Shown in pieces: positions 1,358 through 22,877 of a stretch of 26,285 nt of DNA. The stretch covers positions 1-26,285 of IMG/VR virus record IMGVR_UViG_3300017719_000162; one strand, 5' to 3'. The notes beneath the pieces are model-generated. The model worked only from the letters and a program-made list of their open reading frames with translations. It was not told the DNA's origin and did not search any database. This DNA comes from a virus. Numbering within the stretch: position 1 is the first letter of the stretch; every line of letters starts with the position of its first letter. Position numbers and translations under genes: made by a program.

Positions 1358-1365
1358 TATTTATA
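1358..1365 (-). promoter_or_regulatory. T4-type late promoter, exact TATAAATA
   Basis: The minus strand reads TATAAATA exactly, the consensus -10 element recognised by gp55-containing RNA polymerase in T4. It spans the stop codon (1363-1361) of the giant gene. Initiation about 6 bases downstream (near 1352) would give a leader of roughly 15 bases holding GGAAATAGAG before the ATG at 1337. gp55 is encoded in the same window, which supports the reading. Confidence 0.65.
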
Positions 1366-4300: not shown

Positions 4301-7300
4301 TTTATCAATGTAAGCATCAATATAGAACTTTTTAATATCAGCTGTATCAACTTTAGTTACTTCATGTATTCCGTCAATACTAGGAACAGTGCTACTTCCT
4401 GTAATGAAAACATAATCACCTACAGCTAAATTGTGTGCTTGTGTTACACCTGAACCAATAGCGACTGTAATCTCTGCATCATCTGCATCATTTATCCCTG
4501 CACATGAATAGTTAATATACATATCAAAGTCCATTGTTTGATAAACTTGATATCCTAGGTTTACATTACTTGCAGTACTATTATCAGCTACCCATATACT
4601 AAAGATATTTGGATCATTTGACATTTCACGGAATACTTGATTGCCGTCACTGCCTACAATAGCATTGAATACATTGCTTACTGTTGTTTGTGTTGCACTC
4701 AATGTTTCTGCACTAAGACCAACTATTGTGTTTGCTGTGCCTGCTCCAACTATTAGTTGTTCATTGAGACTTGTTATTTTTAGTCTGTTGTTACTGTTGC
4801 TTGCTGTAACTCCTGTAATACCAGCAGAGTTAATTTTTTCAATAATATCAATCAATGAACTTGCAGTACTGATTGTAGTAGTACTAGTTGTTGCAGGTAC
4901 AATGCCTGTTCCAATTCCTATTGCATTATTTGCAGTTCCGTTACCAATGTAAAGTACACTGTTACTACTTAGAATTCTTAATAGTGCATTTGCAGGAGCA
5001 ACTGACTGTGCAGTAATACCAGCAATTTGTGCTGCATTAATTTGAGATATAACTTGATTAATTGTAAGATTTGGAGTTGTTGTTTGTACATAACTAGTTG
5101 CATTTGTAGTTGTAGTCGACGATGCAAATCCTACATCAGCATTTGCAGTAGCCGCACTAATTCTTAAACTAAATGCTACTGTATCTGTACTTGTAGTTTT
5201 TGTAAGTCTAATTGCGCCGCCCGATACACTTGCTGTTACATCTGAAATATTTGCAGCATTGATTCTATTACGAATAGCTTGTACATCGTAAACTTTAAAT
5301 CCTGATCCACTTTGTGTTGTTACAATAGTACTAGTTGCAAACACTGTATTAGGATTTGCAATTTTCCAATTTTTAATTGCAGTAATGTATTGTCCATTTT
5401 CTAATGCAGAACGTGCACTATTTTTATCTGTGTTGCTTATAGTTTCTGTACCGTTTGCAACGTTAGTTGCATTATAAGTTTTGTTTTGTATATTATTAAT
5501 AATAGTTACATCTGATGTAAGCAAACTTAACAGCTCACTACTCCACGAAGGTGAAGTACCGTATTCAGTTACTAGCTTGTTTATGTTTAATCCTGCATCA
5601 CTTGAACTATAATAATCTTGTAACCATGTGACCCAAGTATTACTACTATTTGCACTGATATATGCTACTCTTAGTGCATCCCACGCATTAATTCTATTAA
5701 TAGATTCTGCTGTAATGTTTCCTGTATTAGTAGTCCAACTAGCATTAAAGCCGTTTATAAATGCTGCTTGTGCACTAATATTAGTTGAAGTAGATTGTGT
5801 TTCGTTAAACATAACACTAGTATTATCAATGATTAATTCTTCTGTAGCACTGCCTGTAATGCTTGCATTAGCAACACTGCCATCAACAACGATATCATTG
5901 TAACGAGTGGTATTAACAACATTGCTAAATGTTATAGTTGAACTATTAACACTACTTTGACCAAGTATTAGTGTTGTGCCGTGTGCAATTACATTACTAC
6001 TGCTAATATCTTGTGTGCCAGTGGCTTGTATCAAATCTAGTGTTACTGTTTCAGCTGATTTTTCTAGTGTTACTACATTTCCATCTAATATAATTGTTGC
6101 GCCAGAAGTTGGAATAGTTGGAAGTGTAATTGTGCCTGTTATATTAATAGGATCATTTGGTCTTGTCAACCCACTACTTCCGTCTGGGTCTAACATTTCC
6201 CAAGTTTTACCTTGATACAGTACTTTATCTTGAAATTTGTATGATGTTTTATTATCCCAAGTCGTAACATCTTTCCATGCACCATAGAAGTTATAATCAT
6301 TACGTGTTTCTTCAGGGAATTTTTTGAAGTCATCTTTGTTTATGACTCTGTAGTCCGTTTCTGTCAGCAAAGGTAAGCCAGCAGTTACATAATCGTTTTT
6401 ATAAAGTTCTTCATCTTTAATTGTATCATAATCAGTGAATCCTCTAGCAGTACGTGCTACAAAGTTATTACCTGCTGTGCCTGTTACTAGAAGATCACTA
6501 CTGTTATCAATATCAATAACAACATCTGACAATACATCAACTCTAGGAGTACTAGAAAATCTAATAGGCTGTGGGTTTGTTGTTAGTAAAGACTTAGTAA
6601 GTTCAAATTCAATTGTATCTCTACTTCGCACATCTCCGTAATCACTTGTTCTAATAGCCCACTCTTCGTAAATATCTGCGTTACTGATACCACCTAGGAT
6701 ACTGTTATTTCTCATAAACGCATTTACACTAAGTCTTGTACCTTGGTATTTTCTACTACCTTTAACAAATTCATATATTGTATCATCATCTAAATCTACA
6801 AGGTCTTGTGCCCAACTTGGCTTATTGTAGCCTGTATTAAACCTAGCAGAATCAACTAACTGACTATTGTTAATATTTGTTCTATTTTCATAATACTGAT
6901 CGGCTTCACGAGCAGTTGTATCAAAGTTATTATAAATTGTATTACCGTCAATAATGTAGCCTGGAGCATAAAGTTTGCCGTTCCAGTCTTTTGTTCTGCT
7001 ACCACGCCATATAATATTTTTGTGCATTTGACCTAATGCAGGACTGTAAACTGTGTCGCTAAAGTCTGTTACATTGTCAAAAACAACAGCATGTTCCAGT
7101 GCAACTTTATACAGCCTTAAACCATATATGTTTGTATTTGTATCTTTTTGTGTAAATGTTGTAATAGGAGAACTTGTGTCTAGTAACTCTCTTGTAATCA
7201 ATACACTGTTAGATAGGATCTGTTTTCCTTCAGAATCTATTATATTATATAGTCCGTCATATTTTTTATTAACATTATCAAAATACCCAATCGTACCATC

Positions 7301-10300
7301 AGAAATACTAATACTTGTTGAATTCGGTATACCAACAAACGTGTTAGTTTCTTTACTGTTTGCCCACATAACAAAATCACTACCAACATCACTCCAAGAA
7401 TCAGTCCATCCAAAACTGTTTAAGTATTCGCCATAACCTAATATAAATGAATACACATCTTGTAAATTAGTTAAAACTGTGTTGTAGTAAAGTTTTTCTA
7501 CAGAGTCTTTATCATATAATTTGTATTTGTCAACTGTTGTATTTTGTATTCCAACAATAGTGTTAGCACCAGTAGTAATAGGTTTGAACCAATTGAAATA
7601 TTGTGTAGTTTCATCATATCCTGTAATGCTATATCCAGTAGAAACTTTTGCAATTTTTATACCGCCGAAAAATAGTTCTGCACTTGGCTGATTTAAGTAA
7701 AGTGTACTTGTTCTATTTTCTTCAGGTATAATTACTTTACCTTTGCCTTGGCTACTTGTTAAAATAAAGTCTTGATTAGATGGATTAATAAATCCTTGTG
7801 TTTGTATCAAAGGATTAAATGTTAAGTTTTCAAATCTTGTGTTAAGATCACTTGGTATTGTTCCATTATTTTTTGCGTATTCTACAATACTATTACTAAG
7901 TCCATTGAAATATTTTATTCCATCTATTGCTAGTTCTACATGTAAACTTACATTACCATCGTCACTTGTAATAGTCGGAATACTCTGATAGTTGCCGCCA
8001 GGGTTATCAACACTCATTGCTACAACACTACCAGTTTCAACTACGGCAGAAACATTTGCGCCATTGCCAAAGTTTGCATAAACTGTAAATTCAGAACTGT
8101 TTGTAAATGTATTATCGCTTGATACAACATCAACACTTGTAACAATACTGTCATTAAAACGTGTGTAAGAAAATTCAAACTTAGTATTATTTCCTAATAA
8201 TTTTGTATCATTGAAATAATACTGCATAGTAGAAATGCTCGAATTACTTGTTTTACGTCTTTGCGTACTTCTGAAGAATGTATTTGTCATCCATAATGGA
8301 CGTAATCTCATTAACGCTTCTGCTAAAGAAGTTTTGTACTCTGAGGTAATTCTCCAAATATATTCAATAGGCCCAATGTCTCCAAACGCAAATGGTTTTG
8401 CTGCATCAACTGATGTTGGAGTCGCTACAAGATTACTTGCAGTAGGGTCATTGAGATCACCGGAAGTTGTTACAATGTCGTTTGTGTCCCATATATAATT
8501 ACTATATGCATATGTAATATCATAAAGTTTCTGTGCTTCGCTTGGGTCATTGTAGTGTCCATATTTTAGTGCTTCGACTAGCGCATTACGTTTTGTAATA
8601 TTAGTCCAACTATAATTTGTATCCCACCATGATGGTTTTTTATTGTATCCCAACATCTCCCATGGATGTGTGTGTGGTCTATCAGTATTAAACCAATATG
8701 TATATAGTCCTCTCCAGCCGCCGATACCGCCACTTACACTACTGTAGTTCCAAGTCCACGGATTATTTGGATCATAGTAATCATCATCTTGAAGATTTAA
8801 AATGCCGTAGTTTGTTTTCCATTTATTAAATCCACTTTGCAATGCATTGGTTAAGTCTGTCCAACTATATGGAGTATCTCGATGAGCATTAGGCATAACA
8901 GTTTTATAATCTTGTACTGTGTTTAATTCTGTACTTAAATTATTAAAAATCCTGTGCTCTAAATCCCATATAGCCGCATCACTTATACTATAACCAGAGC
9001 TTGCTCTGTCATACAGTTCAGTGCCTTGTCTATAATAAATGCTACCGTCATGGCATAAAATGCCTCTAGATGTAGTAACACCATTGGATTCAATATCTAA
9101 ATTACTAACTAATTCAGGAGTATATGTTTTTACGAATCCTAGTTTTGCTGAACTCGGAGGAACAAAACTAACACTGTTAAATGGGAACCAGCGAACAAGT
9201 AAATCAACTCCGCCATCAACTGATGAATAAGTTGGATTGATTTCACTAATATTAAGTGTTATCTTATTTTTTGTAAGTGTATACTGTTTTCCTTCTTGAA
9301 TAGGGAACCATGTACCGCCAGTGACATAGTAATCTCTAACAAAGACTTGAATATGATTTTTTGTATCATTGTATGTGTTAATAGTTTTAGGCAAGTCAAA
9401 TACTTTACTATCGCTAGTAGTAAATCTATAACGAACGACTTCTGCATCTGTATACATTGCCATATCACTATTAGCAAATGCATTGGTATTATTTTTACCA
9501 ATGTTAATATCTTTAAGAGCTTGATCTACAATTTCATATGTACTTTTTTCTATTGCCATTGTATTATGTAACTGTCTTACTTTTTGTAAAAACTGTGTTC
9601 TAAAACGCTTATATTGTTTTGATACATACTTAATACTACTAAATGGATTGGTGTCTGTGTCCATTAGTGTTTGACTAATAAGTTCAGTACTAAATGGTTG
9701 TTGTCTAATTGTGCCGCCATATTCATGTACATGCGGAATCTCTTTATAATTATTTTGTCCAAAGAAGTCGCCACTAAAGTTTGGCATACCTGTCATTTGT
9801 TGACGCATATGTTCTTGTAAATCGCCAAAACTTGCAGTCGCTAACCAACTGTTTTGCGAATTATAAACATGCGTAGGTGCAGCCAGTTCTTTGCCATCTG
9901 CATCTATTACTTTGTCATCTGTACTATAGTAGATATCAATTACATTGTCAACTGCCGCAGTTGTACTAAGTGTAATGAATTTTCCACTTAGTGAATAAGT
10001 TGTTACTGGAACACCGTTATTATAAATTTTCATATCTTCGTTTAACGAATCATCTATAGGCATTAAAAGACCTTGCACTTTAGAACTTCCTACTTGTTTG
10101 TACAGTAGCGGATCTGTTTGTGCTTGTGCAACAGTTACCGTATAAGTCGGACCAGTAAGAACAACACTAACGTTAGAATTTGCTGTGCCGTCTAAATTAA
10201 CAAACTCTAATGATTCACTGAAATACTTGGTAAATTGATAACTTACGCCTTTTCTAATATATAATACAGGATTTACTTTTCCAATTGGTGTTAGTCTACG

Positions 10301-12580
10301 AACTTGGTTGTCTGTAGTGCTGAGTACATTAAACCCGCTACCTTTTTTAAATATCTTAAATCTAGACTCTTTTAGTTTAATGTCACTTGTTCCCAAGTTA
10401 AATGTCAATGACTTTGAAGGATCTGTAATAACATGTCTAATATGTCGTTGAACAGATTGTCCGTTACGTACAAAGTTCCAGCCATTATGATATTTTAGAG
10501 TCTCTATATTTTTATAGTAGTAGTACCCATTGATTTCATTAACTGTATTCGCACCAGTTTGAGCTTGATAGTTTGCATTATCGCTAATAACATTGTACTG
10601 ATAACGTGTTGCGCCTAATTCAAGGTCAAACATATATCCTGGATTATTTCCATAATCTGTGCGTTTAGGTGCAAAGCCAAGTGCTGTATCTATTGCGCCC
10701 GAACCCTTAGCATAATCAAATATTTTATCACCACGGAATGTACTGTTTGGATATACAGTATTACTATCTAGCTCAGTTAGGTTAATATCATATAATGTAA
10801 ACAGTGCGCCTTCACTTCTGTGATCTTTTTGTTGTCCATATCGCCATTTGTTTCCATTCCAATACCATTCACTTCCGCTATAGATATTATTAGGATATGT
10901 TTCACCAAATATTTCATTGTAGCCAATTACAGTTAAGATTTTGTCTCCTGCTACATAATTACTAGTATTAAGTACTTCTGTTAATGTAATGCTTGCGCCA
11001 ACACCATCTACACGGAATATTTTATTAGTGTAACTAGCATCAGACTCTAAGAACAAAATTGTGTCGCCTTTTGCAAGAGGTTTACGAACAACTTCTGTCC
11101 AGTATTCTCTGTTTTCAAAATAGCTTGGGTTTTTAGATCCTGCGTGTGTTTGTATACAATTCCAGTACGAAGGTTGACCACCAAGTGTAAACTTTACTAA
11201 TGCACCTTTGTTGTATCCGCTTTGTGATTGCCAATTATCAGTAATAGTATTTTGTGCAAGATCCCAACTTACACTGCCTACGATCTCTGTTGCAGGATTG
11301 CTAACATTATCAAACACATGAGTAACGTTAGCAATATGTCTTGTACCAAAATCATATTTTTGCATGTTAGCACGATATTCTATAATAGGTCGTATAGCTC
11401 TATATTCTTCTTTGATATAATCAACAGCCGCTAATCCAAGGAAGTCGCAAATTGTATGTATTACTTGCTCATGCATCCATAGGTTACTACGTGCCCATGC
11501 GCTCTGATCTTGACTCCATCTTTGTTCTACAACATATTCACGTGCAATGATTACAAGTTCACGTTGATCAAAAGGTCTATAGTCAAAACTTTCGCCTTCT
11601 GGATCAAACCTACTAGGTTGTCTGCCGCTGTATGTTGTTTGGTTTAACCAATTACGTGTTTCATATTCGTCGACACCTAGGCTTGCTGTAAATTGTTTAA
11701 TAAATTTAATACCTGTAGTATCGCCAACTCCATCAACAATAAACACATCATCTACTGCATAGTTAGTTCCCGATGTGTAAAAACTATGTATTTCTACTTC
11801 CTGGTTTAATGCAGGTGCTGTTGCTAAAATAACAATACCAGCAACATTGTCGTGATTGTAATCAGCAGGATCTACTATTAAGTTGTTTACATATACTTTA
11901 ACAGTAGTAGCACCTACTGCATTTGTGTTAAATCCTTTTACACCAGGTGTGGTTTGATGCACTTTGGTTATTTCATATGGACTAAATCTTATTCTCATAC
12001 CATTTCTAAGTTGTAGTGTTTTACTATTAGAAAGTTCTGGTGTAGTATAAGATAAATTTCCAGGAATAGTATCAATTGTAATTGGGTTTGTAGGAGTTGA
12101 AATAACATCAACTACTGGCATTTGATCAACCATAAAGAAGTAGTTATGATAGTTAATAAACATATCATAGTTAATCGGTATATCTAATGTATAACCTTCT
12201 TCATTGAGTTGGTGTGTTTTACCATCTAAATCTGTTTCGTTGTACTGTAGTGCATTAAGTAAATCTGCATAACTTAGTACATTTGAAATGTTATTATCAG
12301 ATGTACGATTAACAGCACCTGGGTTAAACTCAATACTATCATCATGTGGATCAGTTACTGAACCTGACAGCTTATATTCACCAATATGTGTGTTAATAGA
12401 TTGTAAGCTACCTGTTGACATTAGTTGTTCAAGTGTACTATCTAAAAACTTTTTGTTTACTGATGTTTGAAATATATTAGGAAGTAAATCTGTTACATTT
12501 CGTGTGCCTACATATTCTGAACTTTCGCCAGGTTTAGTTATTAGTGGTGCCACTATTGGTTTTGCACTATAGTCTTTCAT
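1361..12580 (-). CDS. Giant modular baseplate/tail structural protein, 3739 aa
   Basis: One uninterrupted frame covers more than 11 kb. The N-terminus (LLPNIFQTSVNKKFLDST near residues 32-49, then a segment ending in NYDMFINYHNYFF) matches the opening I know from very large virion proteins of marine T4-like phages. The rest is a mosaic. Chitin-binding-like W/Y-rich segments lie near residues 450-500, 2100-2140 and 3135-3185. A Gly-rich NPGGNYQSIPTIT module lies near 1500-1545. Tandem repeats of the type INAAxIxGITA...GTANxxIG lie near 2430-2630. A DDATGFPDSGVIWMGNE module lies near the C-terminus. No enzyme motif or membrane segment was seen. Its start shares one base with the gp6 stop (TAATG), with GGAG 10 bases upstream. 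It occupies the place where T4 has genes 7, 8, 9 and 10, so it may replace several wedge or fibre-attachment proteins; that is inference. Confidence 0.75.
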   Translation of the reverse strand: MKDYSAKPIVAPLITKPGESSEYVGTRNVTDLLPNIFQTSVNKKFLDSTLEQLMSTGSLQSINTHIGEYKLSGSVTDPHDDSIEFNPGAVNRTSDNNISNVLSYADLLNALQYNETDLDGKTHQLNEEGYTLDIPINYDMFINYHNYFFMVDQMPVVDVISTPTNPITIDTIPGNLSYTTPELSNSKTLQLRNGMRIRFSPYEITKVHQTTPGVKGFNTNAVGATTVKVYVNNLIVDPADYNHDNVAGIVILATAPALNQEVEIHSFYTSGTNYAVDDVFIVDGVGDTTGIKFIKQFTASLGVDEYETRNWLNQTTYSGRQPSRFDPEGESFDYRPFDQRELVIIAREYVVEQRWSQDQSAWARSNLWMHEQVIHTICDFLGLAAVDYIKEEYRAIRPIIEYRANMQKYDFGTRHIANVTHVFDNVSNPATEIVGSVSWDLAQNTITDNWQSQSGYNKGALVKFTLGGQPSYWNCIQTHAGSKNPSYFENREYWTEVVRKPLAKGDTILFLESDASYTNKIFRVDGVGASITLTEVLNTSNYVAGDKILTVIGYNEIFGETYPNNIYSGSEWYWNGNKWRYGQQKDHRSEGALFTLYDINLTELDSNTVYPNSTFRGDKIFDYAKGSGAIDTALGFAPKRTDYGNNPGYMFDLELGATRYQYNVISDNANYQAQTGANTVNEINGYYYYKNIETLKYHNGWNFVRNGQSVQRHIRHVITDPSKSLTFNLGTSDIKLKESRFKIFKKGSGFNVLSTTDNQVRRLTPIGKVNPVLYIRKGVSYQFTKYFSESLEFVNLDGTANSNVSVVLTGPTYTVTVAQAQTDPLLYKQVGSSKVQGLLMPIDDSLNEDMKIYNNGVPVTTYSLSGKFITLSTTAAVDNVIDIYYSTDDKVIDADGKELAAPTHVYNSQNSWLATASFGDLQEHMRQQMTGMPNFSGDFFGQNNYKEIPHVHEYGGTIRQQPFSTELISQTLMDTDTNPFSSIKYVSKQYKRFRTQFLQKVRQLHNTMAIEKSTYEIVDQALKDINIGKNNTNAFANSDMAMYTDAEVVRYRFTTSDSKVFDLPKTINTYNDTKNHIQVFVRDYYVTGGTWFPIQEGKQYTLTKNKITLNISEINPTYSSVDGGVDLLVRWFPFNSVSFVPPSSAKLGFVKTYTPELVSNLDIESNGVTTSRGILCHDGSIYYRQGTELYDRASSGYSISDAAIWDLEHRIFNNLSTELNTVQDYKTVMPNAHRDTPYSWTDLTNALQSGFNKWKTNYGILNLQDDDYYDPNNPWTWNYSSVSGGIGGWRGLYTYWFNTDRPHTHPWEMLGYNKKPSWWDTNYSWTNITKRNALVEALKYGHYNDPSEAQKLYDITYAYSNYIWDTNDIVTTSGDLNDPTASNLVATPTSVDAAKPFAFGDIGPIEYIWRITSEYKTSLAEALMRLRPLWMTNTFFRSTQRRKTSNSSISTMQYYFNDTKLLGNNTKFEFSYTRFNDSIVTSVDVVSSDNTFTNSSEFTVYANFGNGANVSAVVETGSVVAMSVDNPGGNYQSIPTITSDDGNVSLHVELAIDGIKYFNGLSNSIVEYAKNNGTIPSDLNTRFENLTFNPLIQTQGFINPSNQDFILTSSQGKGKVIIPEENRTSTLYLNQPSAELFFGGIKIAKVSTGYSITGYDETTQYFNWFKPITTGANTIVGIQNTTVDKYKLYDKDSVEKLYYNTVLTNLQDVYSFILGYGEYLNSFGWTDSWSDVGSDFVMWANSKETNTFVGIPNSTSISISDGTIGYFDNVNKKYDGLYNIIDSEGKQILSNSVLITRELLDTSSPITTFTQKDTNTNIYGLRLYKVALEHAVVFDNVTDFSDTVYSPALGQMHKNIIWRGSRTKDWNGKLYAPGYIIDGNTIYNNFDTTAREADQYYENRTNINNSQLVDSARFNTGYNKPSWAQDLVDLDDDTIYEFVKGSRKYQGTRLSVNAFMRNNSILGGISNADIYEEWAIRTSDYGDVRSRDTIEFELTKSLLTTNPQPIRFSSTPRVDVLSDVVIDIDNSSDLLVTGTAGNNFVARTARGFTDYDTIKDEELYKNDYVTAGLPLLTETDYRVINKDDFKKFPEETRNDYNFYGAWKDVTTWDNKTSYKFQDKVLYQGKTWEMLDPDGSSGLTRPNDPINITGTITLPTIPTSGATIILDGNVVTLEKSAETVTLDLIQATGTQDISSSNVIAHGTTLILGQSSVNSSTITFSNVVNTTRYNDIVVDGSVANASITGSATEELIIDNTSVMFNETQSTSTNISAQAAFINGFNASWTTNTGNITAESINRINAWDALRVAYISANSSNTWVTWLQDYYSSSDAGLNINKLVTEYGTSPSWSSELLSLLTSDVTIINNIQNKTYNATNVANGTETISNTDKNSARSALENGQYITAIKNWKIANPNTVFATSTIVTTQSGSGFKVYDVQAIRNRINAANISDVTASVSGGAIRLTKTTSTDTVAFSLRISAATANADVGFASSTTTTNATSYVQTTTPNLTINQVISQINAAQIAGITAQSVAPANALLRILSSNSVLYIGNGTANNAIGIGTGIVPATTSTTTISTASSLIDIIEKINSAGITGVTASNSNNRLKITSLNEQLIVGAGTANTIVGLSAETLSATQTTVSNVFNAIVGSDGNQVFREMSNDPNIFSIWVADNSTASNVNLGYQVYQTMDFDMYINYSCAGINDADDAEITVAIGSGVTQAHNLAVGDYVFITGSSTVPSIDGIHEVTKVDTADIKKFYIDAYIDKEGDAGNIYPLRPVRFSTESELISSFNTTINGLFKYNFAGVRQNDEQQPIYAYIDNDNSGNPAVYRYTGTYSNGSGHVGTEGWTKVRINQAQARNDLIENVKIYDADRKTLITTLETYDPSKGIIPGYISSEIDFKLTADIASYNYNNLDGFVENQRAWGDLHVGKRWWDLTTAVYLDYEQGSVDYQQANWGRLFDGSSIDIYEWTRSPVLPEQWKDVVDAETIIDGNAATGEAYFKTINDQKVYQWVETTFYNPRTKQVSTQYFFWVKNKTNFNGERRYNISQLSTILENPSAFNISWCAASGTDKLFLTNIDNLVSDTSVVQVNQIQSSNTLPLTEWTLLSDGDPESIIPEYMHIKIRDSLVSYNKASKRYSFETYSASTSYAVNAVVLEAGKYYMSRVASNLGNSPSTDTTGTYWKELIDYSFPEDTPQMDIDVLMSQPVPDLSLHEYNRYGHLTRPAQSLFRDVVTARQNFVEATNELLAKICLVGQAPNWRDVFYKTFTEGSITYDVSKYWTFADWSANNYDSETVPDRIYETTFDMQPVLGEPFLDAVGSHVYVSTVTHPDGINRPEIYKVVLEDGLRTYKRVWKEKGTIRISEELWNQSKYGKGFDSTGFDISGFDDDSSNVLASLFDDLRSKVFVGSVRVYYNKLWFKMLYQAVTDNTTDDFAFKTTYIKLNVNHPVLMSKTYQKYDVGVVEEFVNTIKPFHTKIRTTTEAVTTLDACSAEVTEQQRDTEITLLYPAPSVVQGDNRIGWQGDISLSGGEFNTVAFSDTIETAFTTTTFSDVYDGNVFIQPVQEGWRDGLYPADIHENISILVQTNASGSTETTDTRSFRMNIWEQYRIQESTAVVDATSTVTAASVIASDHDAIMVDDATGFPDSGVIWMGNERIEYGAKGPSTILGTTLFYCTRGTHGTPVLTNTPIGTTVRYEPTMPVLENFAHYGDNLRLAYNDSGVSLASAGTSPEHAFIRNAGPGTI
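4680..5300 (-). repeat. Tandem protein repeats inside the giant gene (hook-IN-like)
   Basis: Within about residues 2430-2630 of the giant protein, two good copies and one looser copy share a pattern. It runs: hydrophobic helix, INAA/INSA, GITA/GVTA, a beta pair (LRILSSNSVLYIGNGTAN; LKITSLNEQLIVGAGTAN), then IG/VG and a Thr-rich linker. The core resembles the flagellin hook IN motif family, in which a short helix precedes a GVTAS strand. The coding strand is Ser/Thr/Ala/Asn-rich here. The boundaries are approximate. Confidence 0.55.
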
Positions 12581-15500: not shown

Positions 15501-16110
15501 GTATTCCATTAAATGGTAGTGTAACATCTGTGCTTGTACTATTAGTTCTGTATACTTCATTCTTTACATTATTACTTGAAAAACGTGCAAACGGTGAACC
15601 GAATTGACTACTACTTTGAAAGATGTTATTCATAATTGTTAAAAAGTTTTGGTAAGTGTTAGGATCTGTTACATCTTCAAACTGTACTTCAACATTTGCA
15701 AGACTTGTGCCGTCTACATCATAAATGTTTTGATTTGTAACAACGCTGTCTATCTTTAAATATCCACTGGCAACGATATTCCTAGTAGGTGTATAGTTTA
15801 AAAATTCAGCAATGCGTAAGGCGCTTTCTCTGCGTTCTGCTGTACTTAAAAAGTTCTCTCTTGTATTAAGATCATTTCGAAATGCTAAGTTATGACCTAA
15901 GAAAGCCATAAGTTCCATTAAACTTACAAATTCACTTGAACTAATCCAGTCATTAAAGTTTTCCGGATAGTTAGCGTTAATGTATTCTACCATACTGTTA
16001 CGTATAGTATCAAAATCATATGCCTTAAAATCTGCTTGTGCAAAACTTTCGTATACTACGCTGAAATCTTCTGCTGCAAACAAGCTACTCTGTCTTGCGC
16101 CTTGTGCCAT
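12580..16110 (-). CDS. 6: Baseplate wedge subunit gp6, enlarged (1176 aa)
   Basis: gp6 forms the inner ring of the baseplate that holds the wedges together and drives the change on contraction. The gp6/baseplate-J-like character is visible in residues 30-115 (NSMVEYINANYPENFNDWIS, then ENFLSTAERRESALRIAEFL, NYTPTRNIVASGYL) and in 430-470 (DDYSLFPVTVSENIRKIKSI). T4 gp6 is 660 aa, so about 500 residues are extra. Part of the excess is a Gly-rich beta module at ~617-690 (TSGSGYTSAPTATITGAG, then TLSGGGGTGASAKV). The C-terminal third (VIYRPVKYKLLFGDLANSEL, then YFNIDNWDFGETFYFTELAA) again looks like the conserved gp6 end. The gene starts in a TAATG overlap with gp25, with AGGTGAAG as ribosome site, and ends in a TAATG overlap with the giant gene. 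gp25 then gp6 is the normal T4-like order. Confidence 0.9.
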   Translation of the reverse strand: MAQGARQSSLFAAEDFSVVYESFAQADFKAYDFDTIRNSMVEYINANYPENFNDWISSSEFVSLMELMAFLGHNLAFRNDLNTRENFLSTAERRESALRIAEFLNYTPTRNIVASGYLKIDSVVTNQNIYDVDGTSLANVEVQFEDVTDPNTYQNFLTIMNNIFQSSSQFGSPFARFSSNNVKNEVYRTNSTSTDVTLPFNGILSGQRAAFTAHSVYYNQTLNRIEEKTPNPYGVFDILYKDDNAGFSSPNTGFFLGFKQGSLQYKDFDIDKGIANLVLDINESNVTNGNMWVQSIDEVGQVQKNWTRVDKLFGLNSAFNSINNNVRDIYTVSSREDDQVSVVFSDGNFGNIPRGIIRVWYRTGLNNSYSLIPDNFGSSRFSINYIANDGNSYRAQFTASLKETVNNASARESIDSIKANASRFFGTQDRMVTSDDYSLFPVTVSENIRKIKSINRVHSGHSRFRDFHDPTATYSDATQFLSDGYLYKDEITARQLVSLPTSLNSEQIFQRYINPILNNPEVKNFYYDRHWYGVESSFNGNLHYSDTTASINYNNADGSDLNVYRWNQVSKSNNSCTGYLTYNSVVQRLGETAPFPLRKLETNGLIEFITTPWTNGYIKTIEVVTSGSGYTSAPTATITGAGSGATATANIAAGEVVSITINTQGLNYNQATNITLSGGGGTGASAKVFVASADTEWVRVTGLNKTGLGEDNSVGTPSGLDITGRGAVVLSKPIPSSARIKRIVPSWEPALETNIKTDVISELTNNNSFGLRYDASSQTWKIVTGSDLSNNNITSNSVANWSRLKEGDTSSTGLDNSWIIRLNYTGTHWEILTRKTRYVFGSEKQIRFNNLNFTETFSSETLKPSLDNITILGINKKSSIDSTPLNTNYKFNAFGYFTYTDGYTDPHKIRLTLADPNNDGFPDNPASFDEIIQNETIKLGTVNEHGYDYAVYDENGSSVVNGRAVLDSKFTRVADLNQLIDPAQTNIIDTFVLLKSYEQDFRRWATFDGRSYTKPNPPTVNMLTNMFTSLEAKKSISDQVIYRPVKYKLLFGDLANSELQANFVITKTTNASLSDTEIKQQTIKLIQSYFNIDNWDFGETFYFTELAAFIHNNMIGQVSQVTLNPISETTSEIGLFEIPANSDEMFMPVISTSNIVVNDNVLLNPTSIAANTGANI

Positions 16111-16472
16111 TATTCTTCACCTATAAAATTTAGAAACAATTCTTCAGCTGTTCCTGTGTCATCATATAAAAGTTGTACTCTAACGTTTAGTGTATGATCA
16201 TTTGGTTTTTCTAAACGCAAGTCTTGAAATATCCATCTTGGATCACTTTCGATAATGCGTATTACATCTTTTTTAACTATACCTTCAGTAATTGGGTCTA
16301 AAGGATCAAATAGTATATCCCATATACTACATCCGAATTCTGGGTTCATAACTCTTTCACCTTTACGTGTATAAAAATGATTCAAAAGGTCACGAACAGC
16401 CAAGTCCTTATCAACAAGAACTCTGTTTCCGTTAGTAGAATTTACAGTACTATATCCAATGTATGTTGCCAT
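16110..16472 (-). CDS. 25: Baseplate wedge subunit gp25
   Basis: This is a 120-residue protein of the gp25/GpW family. It has the family core FYTRKGERVMNPEFGCSIWD at residues 33-52, then ILFDPLDP and a C-terminal beta strand (TLNVRVQLLYDD). In T4, gp25 joins gp6 and gp53 in the wedge core and resembles the sheath end that starts sheath assembly. T4 gp25 is 132 aa, so the length fits. The stop overlaps the gp6 start by one base, so the two are probably made in step. There is no obvious Shine-Dalgarno sequence before the ATG at 16472. A late-promoter-like GATAAATA lies immediately upstream, so initiation may be unusual or depend on readthrough from the 300-residue gene 35 bp away. Confidence 0.93.
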   Translation of the reverse strand: MATYIGYSTVNSTNGNRVLVDKDLAVRDLLNHFYTRKGERVMNPEFGCSIWDILFDPLDPITEGIVKKDVIRIIESDPRWIFQDLRLEKPNDHTLNVRVQLLYDDTGTAEELFLNFIGEE

Positions 16473-16507: not shown

Positions 16508-17410
16508 TCAAATAGTAATACTGGTATCAATGATGTCGTTTTGATTGAGAGATTTAGTAATAGTTAAAACATTACCATCTATTGTGTAATCGTAAAAGTG
16601 CTGTATTATATCTCCGTTAACTTTAACTAATAATTTTTCAACAGGATCCATACTTGGACTACTTACTAAAGTAAAGTTAGTAGAGTTGCTATAAATGTAT
16701 TGCTTAGAAAGTATAGTACTATTATATTCCTTTGCTATGTCACGTTTAGTACTATCTGGAATATTAGGTAAAAACTTTAAAGTTTCTGCATAATAAGCAA
16801 ATCTTGCACGTTTCAACTCTTCTCCAACAATAGCTCCTAGTTCAGCTCGAGATCGAATGTTATAAAGACCTTCTGTTCTTAGTCTTTTTCGATTCTTAGT
16901 TTTTCCATAATCTGCTAAACGTAGTATTGTGGCTGCACGAACACATTTTTGTTTTTCAATTGTACTTCTCATAATCATACTTGCTAATGTATCCCAATCT
17001 TTGTTACGAATCGGCAACAATAGATCGTATATACCTTCAGTTGCATAAACTTCTAAAAAGTTATTAGTTACATAGCTATGAAATAATAATCCATCATATA
17101 CACATTGCGGCAACAAAAATATCTCTGATCTTCTCAACTTTTGATTAAACTGTGTTTGTTTTTTCTGAAAATCATCTTGCCAAGCATCGAATGCTTGTTG
17201 TTCTGTTACAGACGTAGTAACGTTGCCTTTTCCATATCCTTTAAGATTGTATGCATTCCACGAATTAAACCCAAGTGCTACATCAATGAGAGTATCTGTT
17301 GCACTTATAGTTCTAACATTTAGCATTGTATCAAATGAAGTTTGATCTTTAACAATAAAGTCGGACCAAACAGTTTGAAAATAAGTAGATACATTTATTA
17401 AATTTGTCAT
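16508..17410 (-). CDS. Hub-associated protein with degenerate T4-lysozyme-like (GH24) fold, 300 aa
   Basis: Residues 55-170 track the T4 lysozyme layout. KGYGKG (57-62) sits where lysozyme has IGIGH. SVTEQQAFDAWQDDF (67-81) matches ITKDEAEKLFNQDV. LLPQCVYDGLLFHSYV (99-114) matches the helix containing LDAVRRAALINMVF. EGIYDLLLPIRNKDWDTLA (125-143) matches NSLRMLQQKRWDEAA, and CVRAATILRLADYG (156-169) matches the final helices. At the positions of the catalytic Glu11, Asp20 and Thr26 I find no matching residues, so it is probably inactive. The last ~55 residues form a small beta domain (LLVKVNGDIIQHFYDYTIDG) of a type common in phage fibres. The gene overlaps gp5 by ATGA. In T4 the lysozyme domain is inside gp5; here gp5 lacks it and this separate gene follows directly. 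A structural role at the hub or wedge is likely. The fold call is by eye and moderate. Confidence 0.55.
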   Translation of the reverse strand: MTNLINVSTYFQTVWSDFIVKDQTSFDTMLNVRTISATDTLIDVALGFNSWNAYNLKGYGKGNVTTSVTEQQAFDAWQDDFQKKQTQFNQKLRRSEIFLLPQCVYDGLLFHSYVTNNFLEVYATEGIYDLLLPIRNKDWDTLASMIMRSTIEKQKCVRAATILRLADYGKTKNRKRLRTEGLYNIRSRAELGAIVGEELKRARFAYYAETLKFLPNIPDSTKRDIAKEYNSTILSKQYIYSNSTNFTLVSSPSMDPVEKLLVKVNGDIIQHFYDYTIDGNVLTITKSLNQNDIIDTSITI

Positions 17411-18711
17411 TGTGGGCCTACTTTCCCAGACGATGATTGGATATTAGATATGTCTATATCTTTTGCTGTTCTGTTTATTTTACTTGGTGCTTGAGATGCA
17501 ACTGCATTAGTATTTTCTAAATGCCCGCCCCAAGGTTCATGTTCTGGAACTCTAGGATTAACACTTTCTTTAATAGATGTGTTTGATGTTAAGCTGCCGC
17601 TTGTTGGTCCTACAGCACCAAATGCTTTTGGCCCATTTAGATCAATTAGTTTAGCAGTTGTTCTACTAAATCCTTCAGACTTTAAGTGCATATTAAGATC
17701 TGTTGTTAATCTTATATCTTTGTTTGATTTAAACTGCATAGGACCGTCAACTGTTTCTGCTTGTATTCCTGCTGCACCACGAGCTTTTATATTAAAAGAA
17801 TCTGCATCCATGTTAATATCGCCGCCTGCATAAAAATTAAAGTCTTCTTCTGCATGGTAACTTACACTGCCCTTTGCATAAACATCCATATTTCCGTTTT
17901 CATCAAGCTGAACCCAGCTAGTACCGTTTTGATTTATAACATAAACAATTCCAGCAGTATCGTTGATTAAAAATTGACCTCCTCCAGCACTACGAATTCT
18001 TATTAAGTTATTATCGCCGCCTGCTCTATTTTTATCAGGTGTGACACATTCTCCTTCTTCAAACTCTTTAGTACCGTCGTCCATTACAAGACTATGTCCG
18101 TTTGGTGTAAGCATACCAGCTACCCTACTAGGACTTTCTCGTCTAGCACCACTACTGCTTATACCTCTGATAGGATCTAAACCAAGTCCTTGTTCAGCAA
18201 TAGGTAAAACTATCGGATGTCTGGGTCGTTTATTACCTTTTTGTTCTTCGAAAGGAGTCACATCAAATGTAGGTTCTACTCCGTTATCTGTTTCACTAGC
18301 AGGAATACCAGGAAGCATAGAATTTCTATTGCTATCCCCTAATACACCTAGCAAATATCCTTCTTGTTCGCTGCCTGTAAATGCTACTAGTACTTCTGTG
18401 CCACGTGAAGGAGGCGGTGATGACTCTCCATAAGCTAAAGTAAAGTCAGGTCTTTGTATAGATCCGCCAAACTTTGATAATGATCTAATTTTGTGATACT
18501 TAGATCTGTCTTGTGCTGTATTTCTTTCTCCAATGGTTTGATGTCCTACAAGTTCTACTGTAATAGATCCTTGATAATCAATATCTACATTATCAACCAC
18601 TTTAGCAAGATACACACCCATAAGCGTGTTGTGTTCATCTTTTGGACCTTTTCGATGTATGTCGGGTATTCCAATCGACGGTAAGTTCTTTCCTGTAAAT
18701 CTATCTGCCAT
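17407..18711 (-). CDS. 5: Baseplate hub spike protein gp5 (OB fold plus beta-helix, no lysozyme)
   Basis: This is the gp5/VgrG-like spike that pierces the outer membrane. An N-terminal OB-type domain at about residues 28-130 begins HNTLMGVYLAKVVDNVD and ends with TEVLVAFTGSEQEGYLLGVL. A linker with a conserved HSLVMDDG leads into repetitive beta strands from ~225 to 365 (IRIRSAGGGQFLIND, then NMDVYAKGSVSYHAEEDFNF, INMDADSFNIKARGAAGI), which fit the triple-stranded beta-helix. T4 gp5 is 575 aa and has a lysozyme domain between these two parts; the 434-residue protein here has none. It starts 9 bp after the hub gene, with TAAGGT overlapping that stop as ribosome site, and ends in an ATGA overlap with the lysozyme-like gene. 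Identification is strong. Confidence 0.88.
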   Translation of the reverse strand: MADRFTGKNLPSIGIPDIHRKGPKDEHNTLMGVYLAKVVDNVDIDYQGSITVELVGHQTIGERNTAQDRSKYHKIRSLSKFGGSIQRPDFTLAYGESSPPPSRGTEVLVAFTGSEQEGYLLGVLGDSNRNSMLPGIPASETDNGVEPTFDVTPFEEQKGNKRPRHPIVLPIAEQGLGLDPIRGISSSGARRESPSRVAGMLTPNGHSLVMDDGTKEFEEGECVTPDKNRAGGDNNLIRIRSAGGGQFLINDTAGIVYVINQNGTSWVQLDENGNMDVYAKGSVSYHAEEDFNFYAGGDINMDADSFNIKARGAAGIQAETVDGPMQFKSNKDIRLTTDLNMHLKSEGFSRTTAKLIDLNGPKAFGAVGPTSGSLTSNTSIKESVNPRVPEHEPWGGHLENTNAVASQAPSKINRTAKDIDISNIQSSSGKVGPQ

Positions 18712-18720
18712 TTTATTACC

Positions 18721-21399
18721 TTACGTCATCATATTTCTAAGCCATGTGGGTGCAGGAATATCTCGTGTTTCGCCGCTTCCTCCCCAAAATGTGCCTCTAT
18801 TAGCACCGATGCTTTTTCCTACTGCAATATCAAAGTGTCCAGTATTGCCACTCATGTACCATTTATTCGTAGGATATCCGTGATTTGCCCAACCAATACT
18901 TGGTGTGTATCCTTGTGCAGTAGCTCTATCATGGAATTGTTGTGAGAATGATTGAATAATAGCTCTATCAGCAGGATTCCCAACACTTAGTCTACGACCG
19001 CCACTATAAAGTGCAATGTCATGTGCATCTCCATGATGTCTGCCACTACTAGATCCTGGACGTAGTCCACTTGTGCCATCAATTGTAACACCTGTTGCAT
19101 TTGCAGAATCTATTAAGAGTTGTCTCAAGTTTGAATCTGTTCGACTATCTAAGTTTGTATGACCTCCTGCATTATCAACTCCGTTTGCATTTTCTACTGC
19201 ACCAGTATCAGGAATATTAGGAGGTACTGCATCTGAATTATCTGTGCCGTCATTTTCAGTTTCGTTAACGCCTGTAGTTACATTATTTGTGCCTCTGGTT
19301 GCTCTATCAAATACATTACCAAATAGTAATTCTTCGTATAATGTGTTTACATTTGTATTCATATCTCTAAATGATGACAACATCATTGTAAATGATCCGT
19401 TGGCATAATTAGCTTGTAATTGATACACTCGATATACACCTGTAACAGCAAAATTTTGCTTTGCTGACATTAAGCCTGTTTGTTCATCTGGATACGTAGG
19501 GAAATTTAAATTTAGGAAATACTGTAAGCCACCTCTATCGTAGTCTGCTTGTGTGTTATTGTTATAGTTTCCTCTAGGTCTACCTAGCCAATAAGGATCA
19601 CCTCTGATATGTAGTGTTTGTTCTACTAAGTCAGCTAAACTATTCAAATTCATTTCTACTGCACCTAACATAACTGTGCCAACATCATCTTGTCCTTTGT
19701 CTGGACCCATAGTAGGCAAACTATCTACTGGTGCATATCTAAAGTTTAGCGGCAATAGATCTGTTAAGTCTTTTTCACTATACAAATCGGATTGTGTTAT
19801 GTAACGCTGTGCTAGTGATGGCAAATCAAGTCTATTATCTGTGTTACCTTTTTGCTCTTGATTAAACTCATTATATCTCTGATCGTATACTTGTTCTGCA
19901 AAAGTTCGCTGAGGTGCTAGTTCTCTAATTTGAAGTGAAAGTTCGTTATTTTCTGCTTCTAATGCTTTTATATCATCACCTAAACGAATAGCAGAGTCAG
20001 GCCCAGTAATTTTACTACCCAGCTCTTCAATTTTGGCTTGGTTAGAATCCATATTACTTCGCATAGAACTTATTCTGCTTCTTAAACTATTTCTGTCTCC
20101 ACGTAGTTGTGCAATTTCAAATTGAGCGTCAGATGCACTACTGTTGAATGAATTTTCTCTATGTTGTAAAGCGCCGCTGTTTATTGCTTGAATTTGATAG
20201 TATACATTATTAAGTTGTATGTCTAAATCTGTAACTTCTGTGTTAAGACCTGTATGTATATAATCAAATCTCTTTCTCAGTAATCCTTTGTCAAATATAT
20301 TTTGCAGACGCTTAGATTGCAAAGCTGAGGATCTTACTAATTTAGTGTAGCTATTAGGATCATGCACAACTTCAGGTGTTAAGTATGCACCACTAGTATA
20401 TGTTATTTTCTTTTGATAGTGTTTTAATACAAAGTCATAAGCTATATATTCGACTTGCGTATTGTATTTTACCCACTTAACTATATCTGCAAGTTGTGTT
20501 GCGTCAGCTTCGCCATCGTCTGGATCTTCTTTTGCAAATCCAGCGTCAGTAAGTAATTTTTTAAAATTTCTAGTTTGATAAAGTGCTAGACTCGTTGCAG
20601 ATGTTATTGCAGTACCAGCCGGAAATGCAAAACGTAGTGTTCCAGCACCACTTACACTGATACCACTATATTGCTGTAATCTAGATCCGGTTACGGCATC
20701 AAATTCGTATTCAAGCCATTCACTTACATCAGTCTTGAATTCGTATATAGTTGGCAATACTCGCCCGATTCCATTTTTAGCTTGTTCATCTGATTGTTCT
20801 TGTACTCTTGTTTGAAATTCTGTTAAGAATTGTCCGTAAGTAGATGCTTCGACTACAATATCAGCAGTTAAGTGAAACTCAAGTCTGGAATACGCATCTG
20901 TCATTGTTTCAATAAACGATCCTGCATATTTGCTTGCACCATCAGCATGGTCCATAGTTAATCCTGTGAGTGTAGTCATATAATAGTATGGGCCAATAAT
21001 AATAGGAACAGCTTGTCCGCTTTCGGTCCAACCTGTAAATTTAAGTTCTAAAAGATAGCATGCCTGTAGATGGTTTTCAATTCCTAATTGCTTTGCTGCT
21101 GTGTATATTCTAGTAAAAAATGTAGCGCCGCTGGTTTCGAGGAAGTTAAAAGTAAATTGGTTAGCAACACTATTTCTGTTTTGTTGTGCAAATGTAAGCA
21201 CTAAGTCTTGTGTTACATTTTCAATACTAATTTCATTTTCAACACCTGATTCGGCAAGTGTAATGACTCTATTCATATCTAATAGATTATCAAATTCATG
21301 TGCTTCCATCGGATGACACATGTGCACTGCCCAGCGATAAGTGTAACTTTCATACTGGTTTAGTATGTTTTCTTGATATAAGGATTCTAAACCTTTCAT
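18721..21399 (-). CDS. Large baseplate hub protein with coiled coil and C-terminal M15-like peptidase domain, 892 aa
   Basis: Four parts are visible. Residues 1-400 are a hub-like beta-rich region (TYRWAVHMCHPMEAHEF; GPYYYMTTLTGLTMDH). Residues ~395-515 include a charged coiled coil (LRGDRNSLRSRISSMRSNMD; IKALEAENNELSLQIREL). Residues ~540-690 carry IRGDPYWLGRP and NFAVTGVYRVYQLQANYANG, the pattern of gp27-type hub ends in marine T4-like phages. After a Gly/Asn/Asp-rich linker (700-750) comes a C-terminal domain with SGLRPG (777-782), RHHGDAHDI (787-795) and GHFDIAVG (854-861), ending PAPTWLRNM. This resembles zinc M15 DD-peptidases (SxHxxGxAxD plus a late His), but the first histidines sit closer to the Gly than in the usual motif. 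The gene lies between gp53 (TAATG overlap) and gp5. It is the best candidate for the gp27 role with an added peptidoglycan-cutting tip; T4 gp27 is only 391 aa. Confidence 0.7.
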   Translation of the reverse strand: MKGLESLYQENILNQYESYTYRWAVHMCHPMEAHEFDNLLDMNRVITLAESGVENEISIENVTQDLVLTFAQQNRNSVANQFTFNFLETSGATFFTRIYTAAKQLGIENHLQACYLLELKFTGWTESGQAVPIIIGPYYYMTTLTGLTMDHADGASKYAGSFIETMTDAYSRLEFHLTADIVVEASTYGQFLTEFQTRVQEQSDEQAKNGIGRVLPTIYEFKTDVSEWLEYEFDAVTGSRLQQYSGISVSGAGTLRFAFPAGTAITSATSLALYQTRNFKKLLTDAGFAKEDPDDGEADATQLADIVKWVKYNTQVEYIAYDFVLKHYQKKITYTSGAYLTPEVVHDPNSYTKLVRSSALQSKRLQNIFDKGLLRKRFDYIHTGLNTEVTDLDIQLNNVYYQIQAINSGALQHRENSFNSSASDAQFEIAQLRGDRNSLRSRISSMRSNMDSNQAKIEELGSKITGPDSAIRLGDDIKALEAENNELSLQIRELAPQRTFAEQVYDQRYNEFNQEQKGNTDNRLDLPSLAQRYITQSDLYSEKDLTDLLPLNFRYAPVDSLPTMGPDKGQDDVGTVMLGAVEMNLNSLADLVEQTLHIRGDPYWLGRPRGNYNNNTQADYDRGGLQYFLNLNFPTYPDEQTGLMSAKQNFAVTGVYRVYQLQANYANGSFTMMLSSFRDMNTNVNTLYEELLFGNVFDRATRGTNNVTTGVNETENDGTDNSDAVPPNIPDTGAVENANGVDNAGGHTNLDSRTDSNLRQLLIDSANATGVTIDGTSGLRPGSSSGRHHGDAHDIALYSGGRRLSVGNPADRAIIQSFSQQFHDRATAQGYTPSIGWANHGYPTNKWYMSGNTGHFDIAVGKSIGANRGTFWGGSGETRDIPAPTWLRNMMT

Positions 21400-21698
21400 T
21401 AATTGTTCCCTGGTGATCTATAACGCTTTGGCACAACAATATCAAGACCAGCTACAAAGTCATTGATCGGATCTTTGAGTTTATCTCTATTATAATGTAC
21501 TAGTACCCACCATAGTTTACTAGAGCCTAATAGATCATTTGCCATTAAGTCTGGACGTCTGTTGTACTTATTGCTGATAGCAACTAGTCTTGTTTCGTCA
21601 CTCAAATTTTCACTAGTTAGTACAGGAGAATAGTTTTCTAGATATTTCCTATTTGTTTTAGTGCTTACATAGTTGCTGTTAAGTCCGTATCTTGCCAT
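21399..21698 (-). CDS. 53: Baseplate wedge subunit gp53
   Basis: This is a 99-residue protein with the gp53 signature NLSDETRLVAISNKYNRRPD, then LMANDLLGSSKLWWVLVHYN and a terminal DPINDFVAGLDIVVPKR. The end resembles a LysM-like fold, as known for gp53. In T4, gp53 (196 aa) completes the wedge and binds the gp6/gp25 core, which lets wedges join round the hub. The short form here keeps the conserved core and is usual for marine relatives. Its start shares one base with the stop of the tail-tube-cap gene, and its stop shares one base with the start of the hub gene (TAATG at both ends), so all three are probably translationally coupled. The upstream GGAGATGG is a plausible ribosome site. Confidence 0.92.
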   Translation of the reverse strand: MARYGLNSNYVSTKTNRKYLENYSPVLTSENLSDETRLVAISNKYNRRPDLMANDLLGSSKLWWVLVHYNRDKLKDPINDFVAGLDIVVPKRYRSPGNN

Positions 21699-22300
21699 TA
21701 AATAAATCCATCTCCGTATGCTTGACCTGATAAAAATGATGATTTGCTAAATCTAAGTTTTTGTCTGTCAGGACTTTGTTGTACCATTAAGTCTAATGCA
21801 ACTGTCATAACGGCAGGAAGTGCTACTCCGTTTACTTCTATTAAGTCAGTATCTGTTTGCATAGGTAAACTGAATGTTCCGACTAGTACAGGTACAGCTT
21901 CGAACATAGTTTTTCCATATGCGCTAAATCTTAGCACAGGAGGCGGAGTGCCTGCTTCTGCGCCTCCGGCACCTCCGATATCATTGATGCCATAATACAT
22001 TTTGGTAACACTTCTTAAAAAGTGTATAACACCTTGTGTATACAAGTGCTCTTCTTGTGTTGAATGAGTAAACTGAGCCGTTATCTGAATGCTTGGACTT
22101 GGTGTTCCAGAATAGGCGTGGCTTGTATAGTTGGTATGTGTTAAACTATATGGACTATAGTTTGCACTCTGACTATAAACAACATCTGGTTGATTAGGAA
22201 ATATTATACCTCCTGTGCTTCTCAGTGCAGCAGCCGGGCCTTGGAAATATTGTGGAGCAGTTATTTGTAACTTGGTTCTATTTTCACTCGATATTGCCAT
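21698..22300 (-). CDS. 48: Baseplate tail-tube cap/initiator, gp48/gp54-like (200 aa)
   Basis: In T4, gp48 and gp54 sit on the hub and start polymerisation of the tail tube. The conserved order is visible here: PQYFQGPAAALRSTGGIIFP (16-35), SIQITAQFTHSTQEEHLYTQ (70-89) followed by GVIHFLRSVTKMYYG, then PPPVLRFSAYGKTMFEAVPV (119-138), and VMTVALDLMVQQSPDR near the end. T4 gp48 shares the C-terminal plan (a tube-like domain with a helix before a Gly loop, then long strands) but is 364 aa. A Gly/Ala/Pro-rich loop (DIGGAGGAEAGTPPP) may be a local insertion. The gene overlaps the upstream nucleotidyltransferase by 17 bp and gp53 by one base. gp48 is chosen over gp54 on context; the family is more certain than the number. 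Confidence 0.72.
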   Translation of the reverse strand: MAISSENRTKLQITAPQYFQGPAAALRSTGGIIFPNQPDVVYSQSANYSPYSLTHTNYTSHAYSGTPSPSIQITAQFTHSTQEEHLYTQGVIHFLRSVTKMYYGINDIGGAGGAEAGTPPPVLRFSAYGKTMFEAVPVLVGTFSLPMQTDTDLIEVNGVALPAVMTVALDLMVQQSPDRQKLRFSKSSFLSGQAYGDGFI

Positions 22301-22877
22301 TTAATTTACCTTTCACAAACTCATACACTTTAGGATTAAACGCTCCGAAGAAATCTTTAAATGCTTGTTTTCTTTTTTCTTCTTCAATGCCATCCATACG
22401 CATTATATTTCTAAACGTAGTAGCACTACGCCCATCATCCTTGACAGGTACAGTGTAAATATATCCTGCCTCATCACTTGATGTTAATTGTTCACCGTCT
22501 TTATACATACGTAAGTAGCCACCTGTTTTTAAACGTCCAGCATCTTTTTCACTGAATACTAACAGTACCGCAGTATTGTTTGGATCTTTACCAGTTGCAC
22601 TAACGTCAGGCTGATACGGACTAGTACGTATAATCTTATCAGCTGGTATATTAAACATGTCTGTCATAATACCTGTTTTTTCTTCGTAACTAAACGGATC
22701 CTTTTCTGGCTGTGCATTCTTTGCTATTGTAGTAGCGATAAATACGTTACCGGAACCAAACTTACGAACAAGATCCATATAAACTTGGTAATGGCCACTA
22801 TGCATAGGTTGAAATCTGCCACCATAAAATACGGCGATATCATTTGCTACAGCTTCAGTGAGTTGCGAATATCTCAT
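22284..22877 (-). CDS. Nucleotidyltransferase (NMN adenylyltransferase/cytidylyltransferase-like), 197 aa
   Basis: The N-terminal Rossmann-type motif FYGGRFQPMHSGH (17-29) carries the HxGH signature of the nucleotidylyltransferase superfamily. RSATTFR (150-156) matches the second nucleotide-binding motif (ISSTxxR type). NVFIATTIAKNAQPEKDPFS (44-63) is the expected second strand and loop. Such enzymes join a nucleotide to a phosphorylated substrate, for example NMN to ATP to make NAD. The substrate cannot be read from these motifs. It is the first gene of the leftward baseplate block, with a strong AGGAG site, and its end overlaps the tail-tube-cap start by 17 bp, so it is expressed with structural genes. 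Both active-site motifs are intact, so it is probably a working enzyme. Relatives occur in marine T4-like phages. Confidence 0.85.
   Translation of the reverse strand: MRYSQLTEAVANDIAVFYGGRFQPMHSGHYQVYMDLVRKFGSGNVFIATTIAKNAQPEKDPFSYEEKTGIMTDMFNIPADKIIRTSPYQPDVSATGKDPNNTAVLLVFSEKDAGRLKTGGYLRMYKDGEQLTSSDEAGYIYTVPVKDDGRSATTFRNIMRMDGIEEEKRKQAFKDFFGAFNPKVYEFVKGKLNGNIE

Follow-up and report, generated by a model that had tools for sequence, protein, structure and literature searches.

The window, by which we mean the whole 26,285-base stretch analysed here, is an IMG/VR virus fragment with a GC content of 35% and covers part of a genome only. From position 22877 its minus strand carries, in order, NMNAT-like, gp54-like and gp53 genes, a gene for an 892-aa protein, gp5, a gene for a 300-aa protein, gp25, gp6 and a giant gp7-like gene, and its plus strand carries gp55-, gp47- and gp46-like genes; the labels gp54-, gp55-, gp46-, gp47- and gp7-like were taken from gene order and from the annotation of syntenic isolate genes. 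The order of the baseplate genes is that of the jumbo myoviruses PA5oct, Serratia BF, E. coli 121Q and Klebsiella Kae01. The nearest isolate proteins were only ~51% identical for gp47 and ~40% identical for gp6, so no phage in the collection searched is closely related to the clade, which is probably marine. The genes that matter for the analysis are the following.

21399..21698, minus strand: gp53-like baseplate wedge protein, the gene-order anchor (phrog_7145, E = 3.4e-19)
18721..21399, minus strand: 892-aa baseplate protein, hub-type, with a C-terminal M15-like domain; flanked by gp53 and gp5 (phrog_11190)
17407..18711, minus strand: gp5-like spike of 434 aa with OB fold and beta-helix and no lysozyme domain (phrog_13211, residues 34-352)
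16508..17410, minus strand: conserved lysozyme-like protein of 300 aa without the catalytic Glu, probably inactive (ortholog comparison)
16110..16472, minus strand: gp25-like wedge protein (PF04965, E = 2e-8)

Residues 9-675 of the 892-aa protein matched phrog_11190, a 'virion structural protein' family (E = 2.7e-34), and the records of PA5oct and Kae01 state that homologs were detected in the virion by mass spectrometry. The gene sits beside gp5 in the baseplate operon (gp53-hub-gp5-lysozyme-like-gp25-gp6), and we named its product a putative baseplate hub from this gene order. No similarity between the hub core and T4 gp27 was detected by hhalign and a PDB profile search, both at the sequence level, so the predicted tail location rests on gene order and on mass spectrometry of distant homologs. 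The protein falls into three parts.

19330..21399, minus strand: conserved hub core, residues 1-690, with a coiled-coil at about 410-515 (367 IMG/VR relatives)
19138..19329, minus strand: low-complexity N/T/G/D linker, residues 691-754, varying in sequence among relatives
18724..19137, minus strand: M15/LAS-fold metallopeptidase-like domain, residues 755-892 (AF2 models, fold searches, hhalign)

The motif GDPYWLG was invariant in the core. Isolate homologs aligned to residues about 8-684 only, and the C-terminal domain was present in none of the seven isolate homologs inspected.

Sequence-based searches that started from one protein revealed little about this domain. Pfam and PHROG scans of the window domain alone returned no match, with no Pfam M15 model reaching the cut-off and PF08291 matching weakly in 4/50 relatives; phmmer with the single sequence against the PDB gave only beta-lactamases and other chance matches, which were rejected, and IMG/VR searches with the single domain or single hub sequence recovered 0 relatives. 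In the N4-like phage OLIVR1 (L009) tblastn gave a weak match (E = 0.3) to a structural protein that has the same motif as the window, and a two-sequence alignment of window and OLIVR1 retrieved 26 loci from IMG/VR. Those with enough sequence encode full-length orthologs of the window protein, about 34-44% identical and carrying the C-terminal domain; with such full-length orthologs present in uncultured viral contigs, we rejected a one-off fusion or assembly error. A wider alignment yielded 80 loci, other phage proteins among them: a domain of the window type also occurs in proteins of 250-330 aa on other phage contigs (L077, L078, L094, L095, L097, L101 and L102), as it does in the OLIVR1 structural protein.

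The earlier note on this DNA, made from the sequence alone, had described the minus-strand 892-codon frame, three motifs near its end and a flexible linker ahead of them, and each of these was present, the linker being rich in N, T, G and D and the motifs being SGLRPG, RHHGDAHDI (787-795) and GHFDIAVG. They are listed here with a fourth signature.

19054..19071, minus strand: SGLRPG, residues 777-782, an SG-x-R/Q motif ahead of the metal motif, read from the sequence
19018..19041, minus strand: RH788HGDAHD794, with the first two predicted zinc ligands, H788 and D794, in H-x5-D spacing (R, H, G and D invariant)
18853..18858, minus strand: Y848-M849, an invariant family signature seven and six residues ahead of H855 (64/64 domains)
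18835..18837, minus strand: H855, predicted third zinc ligand, within GHFDIAVG (854-861) and aligned with the third His of MepK

The SG of SGLRPG was conserved, the following R being typical of the subclade of the window and replaced by Q in most other relatives. R787, H788, G790, D794, Y848, M849, H855 and W872 were invariant in both the 35- and the 50-sequence alignments, and L804, G836 and L887 were additionally invariant in the 50-row domain alignment (A3). Because H788 is invariant and position 789 varies among relatives, H788 is the predicted first ligand and H789, which had been left as an equal choice, was rejected. The motifs exceed what chance would give: the pattern RH-x(1,2)-G-x(1,3)-D...YM-x5-H arose in 7 of 200,000 shuffles of the domain, a frequency that applies to a pattern picked post hoc, and the invariant residues carry more weight. 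The Asp or Glu that M15C enzymes carry three residues ahead of the third His was not conserved among the 64 domains, that position being N852 in the window and N, G, D, T, V, S or Q in the family. Candidates for the general base are the invariant Y848 and D857, the latter position being Asp in 50/64 domains.

Structure prediction placed the domain among the LAS-fold enzymes. The AlphaFold2 model of the window domain had a pLDDT of 73 and a pTM of 0.77, with D794 and H855 on predicted strands and the loop just ahead of H788 at a pLDDT under 50. In VIA-align its top four matches were all M15C endopeptidases (ChiX, Z 8.0; LysECD7, 7.1; EndoT5, 6.6; RB49 enzyme, 6.5), followed by hedgehog domains, VldE and Ply500 interspersed with a few designed or unrelated chains. 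A relative with the canonical motif, L046, gave a better model (pLDDT 85.5, pTM 0.84) that matched 1LBU, ChiX, LysECD7, LysB4, RB49, VanX, Ply500, MepA and hedgehog, with unrelated folds entering its VIA list only at about Z 5 and lower. The fold scores were modest, the best Foldseek E being 0.006-0.02 and no VIA Z exceeding 8, and the absence of MepK from the VIA match lists is uninformative either way.

Profile comparison pointed in the same direction. The 35-row domain profile (A6) matched the MepK/DUF882 profile (A7) at a probability of 82-91% (E 1e-5 to 1e-6), a score reached by 0/100 column-shuffled controls, and matched an M15C profile built from phage endolysins at 86% (E = 4.7e-6; reached by 0/60 shuffles), as against E 0.09-0.57 for profiles of three unrelated phage hydrolases. 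A PDB profile search likewise put two M15C enzymes first, at E 0.02-0.03 only, and hhalign of the domain gave no significant match when MepK was represented by one sequence, in contrast to the MepK family profile. These results, together with the invariant His/Asp/His, indicate that the domain is, on sequence and model evidence, an M15/LAS-fold (clan MD) metallopeptidase relative, in line with the resemblance to zinc M15 peptidases that had been proposed; the best structural matches were M15C endopeptidases and nearly all were LAS members rather than a non-peptidase fold.

The best profile match, MepK/YcbK (DUF882), is an M15A-like enzyme of E. coli, a peptidoglycan L,D-endopeptidase described as preferring 3-3 cross-links (PMC9249393, PMC12729407). 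MepK and the hub domain have in common H-x-x-G-x-A-x-D, G-x-G...Y-x6-H-x-D, a Tyr seven residues ahead of the third His, no acid at the position three before it, and a Trp near the end. They differ in that MepK is a free exported host cell-wall enzyme and the hub domain is fused to a virion protein and has additional YM and WGG motifs, its spacing in the window being H-x5-D. The M15C L-Ala-D-Glu endopeptidases EndoT5, LysECD7, RB49 endolysin, ChiX and Ply500 share fold and motif with the hub domain, but they are free proteins that carry the Asp or Glu missing from the virion fusion.

Neither of the neighbouring genes offers an evident muramidase. The window gp5 matched gp5 families in its OB and beta-helix parts only and returned no lysozyme match, as the earlier note had supposed, whereas the gp5 proteins of 121Q and BF end in a T4-type lysozyme. 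The 300-aa protein itself had no Pfam match, but its L050 ortholog matched PF00959 Phage_lysozyme (E = 1.1e-4), and Glu at the GH24 catalytic position was absent in all compared orthologs so far as a difficult alignment places it. It is thus probably a non-enzymatic lysozyme relative, a view that depends on that alignment and agrees with the lysozyme-like yet apparently inactive neighbour described before. The protein consists of a degenerate lysozyme fold and then a conserved C-terminal part, and it occupies the site at which 121Q and BF have a separate lysozyme.

We assessed how constant the fusion is by scanning IMG/VR with the hub core, the tail being excluded from the query, and retained the best 80 of the 367 relatives returned. 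Among the 54 non-redundant hubs from these best 80, 49 carried the M15 tail and five did not. Four of the tail-less hubs (L113, L116, L121 and L123) have a T4-type lysozyme at the N-terminus and the fifth (L151) has an N-terminal NNPGN domain, and further hubs carry both an N-terminal head and the M15 tail. Heads matched either PF00959, at E values of 1e-15 to 3e-20, or the 'Phage tail lysozyme' model PF18013, at 1e-23 to 1e-26, apart from the NNPGN head, which had no relevant Pfam match and which we tentatively take to be lysozyme-like. The NNPGN(I/M) domain spans ~110 residues and stands at the hub N-termini of L058, L065, L070, L039 and L151. When HMMs of the four modules (T4-type lysozyme, phage tail lysozyme, NNPGN and M15) were run over the neighbourhoods examined, at least one module was found in 89/89 hub ORFs and none matched any non-hub ORF. 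The hub-core tree requires a minimum of seven changes of head and three changes in tail presence. A head was present in 5/5 tail-less and 17/49 tailed hubs (Fisher p = 0.008), cases that are not independent because four of the five tail-less hubs are close relatives. This distribution accords with a requirement that each hub carry one or more hydrolases.

We consider it probable that the C-terminal domain is a zinc-dependent M15-type (LAS-fold) peptidase, tethered by the linker to a hub-like core, which serves as the tail-associated peptidoglycan-cutting enzyme replacing the gp5 muramidase, with H788, D794 and H855 binding the metal. One zinc would be held by these three residues; the flexible linker would let the domain reach the wall after tail contraction, and the domain, presumably placed at the tail tip, would cleave the stem peptides of peptidoglycan or its peptide cross-links as the contracted tail encounters the wall, standing in for the muramidase that T4 carries on gp5. 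The idea of a peptidase in place of a gp5 muramidase, already put forward in the earlier note, is favoured by the predicted fold, the profile matches, the invariant His/Asp/His, the kept fusion and the presence of at least one predicted hydrolase on every hub of the clade that was examined.

It is unlikely, by comparison, that the M15 fold and metal site have been kept with cutting lost, so that the domain acts as a peptidoglycan- or metal-binding anchor. Hedgehog proteins use an M15-type fold for binding, and hedgehog structures were among the fold matches; the domain also has no conserved acid ahead of the third His, its metal motif is shortened in the window, and L105, L107, L131 and L058 bear a second, clearly lytic or lysozyme-like domain. 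Against this, most hubs have no other hydrolase and tail-less hubs always have a lysozyme-type head, a substitution that an enzymatic need explains better than binding. The acid is likewise missing in MepK, which is described as an endopeptidase (PMC12729407, PMC9249393), so its absence alone does not mean inactivity.

Opening of the wall might instead fall to a different enzyme, whether the lysozyme-like neighbour, gp25 or one outside the fragment, with the M15 domain as an accessory, and we regard this as rather improbable. The fragment is only part of a genome, T4 gp25 bears the annotation 15k lysozyme, and PA5oct and SCTP-2 have neither a gp5 lysozyme nor a hub M15 domain; yet the neighbour lacks the Glu at the expected place in all compared orthologs, and no hub without a hydrolase was seen among those examined in the clade. 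In PA5oct (L003) and SCTP-2 (L006) the region as a whole shows no evident entry enzyme. A further observation from this survey is that gp5 of Agrobacterium phage Atu_ph07 (L007:8689-11286) has a C-terminal trypsin-like protease domain (PF13365, E = 6e-17).

L053-L055, a distant clade, carry the M15 domain at the C-terminus of gp5, after an apparent internal lysozyme, and in L055, where the hub is in view, the hub has no M15 domain; the domain therefore occurs on both of two neighbouring proteins. The earlier note had spoken of a peptidoglycan-cutting function that may have moved to the end of the hub protein: the domain does lie there, but with L053-L055 carrying it on gp5 and L055 on a long branch the order of events is not polarised. 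The apparent internal lysozyme of these gp5-like proteins (L055:7105-9384; also L053 and L054) is of the T4-gp5 type (KESSGF...NGYGT), and the gp5-like gene adjoins one for a 212-aa protein matching Phage_lysozyme (E = 4.3e-13). The distribution of the domain over two tail proteins also bears on whether the 892-aa protein is some other baseplate or virion component, with the enzyme elsewhere in the particle. The lack of detectable similarity to T4 gp27 and a PHROG label that says merely 'virion structural protein' would allow this. We judge it rather improbable too, as gp53 and gp5 flank the gene in the window, in many relatives and also in jumbo phages including PA5oct, BF, 121Q and Kae01, and the domain's occurrence on the 892-aa-type protein and on gp5 in different clades suggests a common tail-tip location.

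The predicted metal motif of the window is one residue shorter between H788 and D794 than in standard M15 enzymes, the difference in spacing that had been noticed before. H-x5-D occurred in 9/64 domains of the tree (the window, L010, L131, L141, L145, L146, L154, L165 and L171) and H-x6-D in the other 55/64. The nine form one well-supported group of 13 with the closest relatives of the window, L105, L107, L110 and L153, which are 51-55% identical and have H-x6-D within a canonical RH(T/V)HG(N/D)ASD; at least two changes of spacing are required by the domain tree. Because nine domains share the short form and the nearest relatives of the window have the long one, the contraction is a tolerated local variant and not the defining feature of a new site: the proposed variant metal site thus stands as a real difference in spacing, but one local to part of a subclade. 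The short spacing could distort the metal site of the window domain, and a decaying window copy, its zinc site damaged by a one-residue deletion with its relatives still active, would accord with the canonical motif of those four relatives and the low model confidence for that loop, but it is decidedly improbable given the eight other hubs in the subclade with short spacing and the remaining motif residues intact, an intact ORF and conservation of the rest of the domain.

More tentatively, and with slightly less than even confidence, we suggest that in this large, uncultured, probably marine myovirus clade the hub-type protein is an exchangeable two-ended holder of wall-cutting enzymes, and that its M15 module represents a subfamily not described before, active in the absence of the usual acid and tolerant of a zinc motif contracted by one residue. 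In phages like that of the window this module would be the sole enzyme for entry.

The architecture resembles that of Tal in the siphophages TP901-1, Tuc2009 and 80alpha, a gp27-like hub with a C-terminal wall-lysing extension (PMC7291167, PMC7048315). The window protein fits this plan in bearing a C-terminal extension on a hub-type protein, as known here from sequence and models, and our best reading is that it is a predicted Tal-like tail-associated peptidoglycan endopeptidase. Tal belongs to siphophages of Gram-positive hosts that have no gp5 spike, whereas the window encodes a gp5/gp6/gp25/gp53 myovirus baseplate with an M15 domain, and in its clade, unlike in Tal, the hub also takes extra N-terminal modules. 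With respect to function and infection stage, the expected counterparts are the gp5 lysozymes of T4 and RaK2 type, internal in T4 and terminal in RaK2 (PMC3622015), 121Q and BF, and missing from the window gp5. In P1 gp5 likewise lacks a lysozyme and the muralytic domain is on the tape measure protein, as in T5 and TM4 (PMC9024508), rather than on the hub-type protein. A literature search of partial coverage found no paper reporting a myovirus hub protein with an M15 domain.

These findings point to a likely site for the entry enzyme in phages whose gp5 spike is bare, and would extend the Tal principle, known from siphophages that infect Gram-positive hosts, to phages with contractile tails and a T4-type baseplate. 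They also define an M15 subfamily missed by Pfam. The natural domain swaps provide a ready set for asking which bond in peptidoglycan a phage has to cut on entry, and the short motif is a natural test of how far H-x6-D can shrink.

Several features of the surrounding region stand apart from the hub. RNA folding around the hub/gp5 junction showed nothing notable. The gp7-like baseplate protein (1361-12580) has 3739 aa, which is very large for a wedge protein, and its orthologs come after gp6 in relatives. A Cytidylyltransferase/NMNAT-like gene (22284-22877; PF01467, E = 1e-6) lies within the baseplate operon; it is missing from that site in PA5oct and 121Q and is kept there across the clade at ~55-68% identity.
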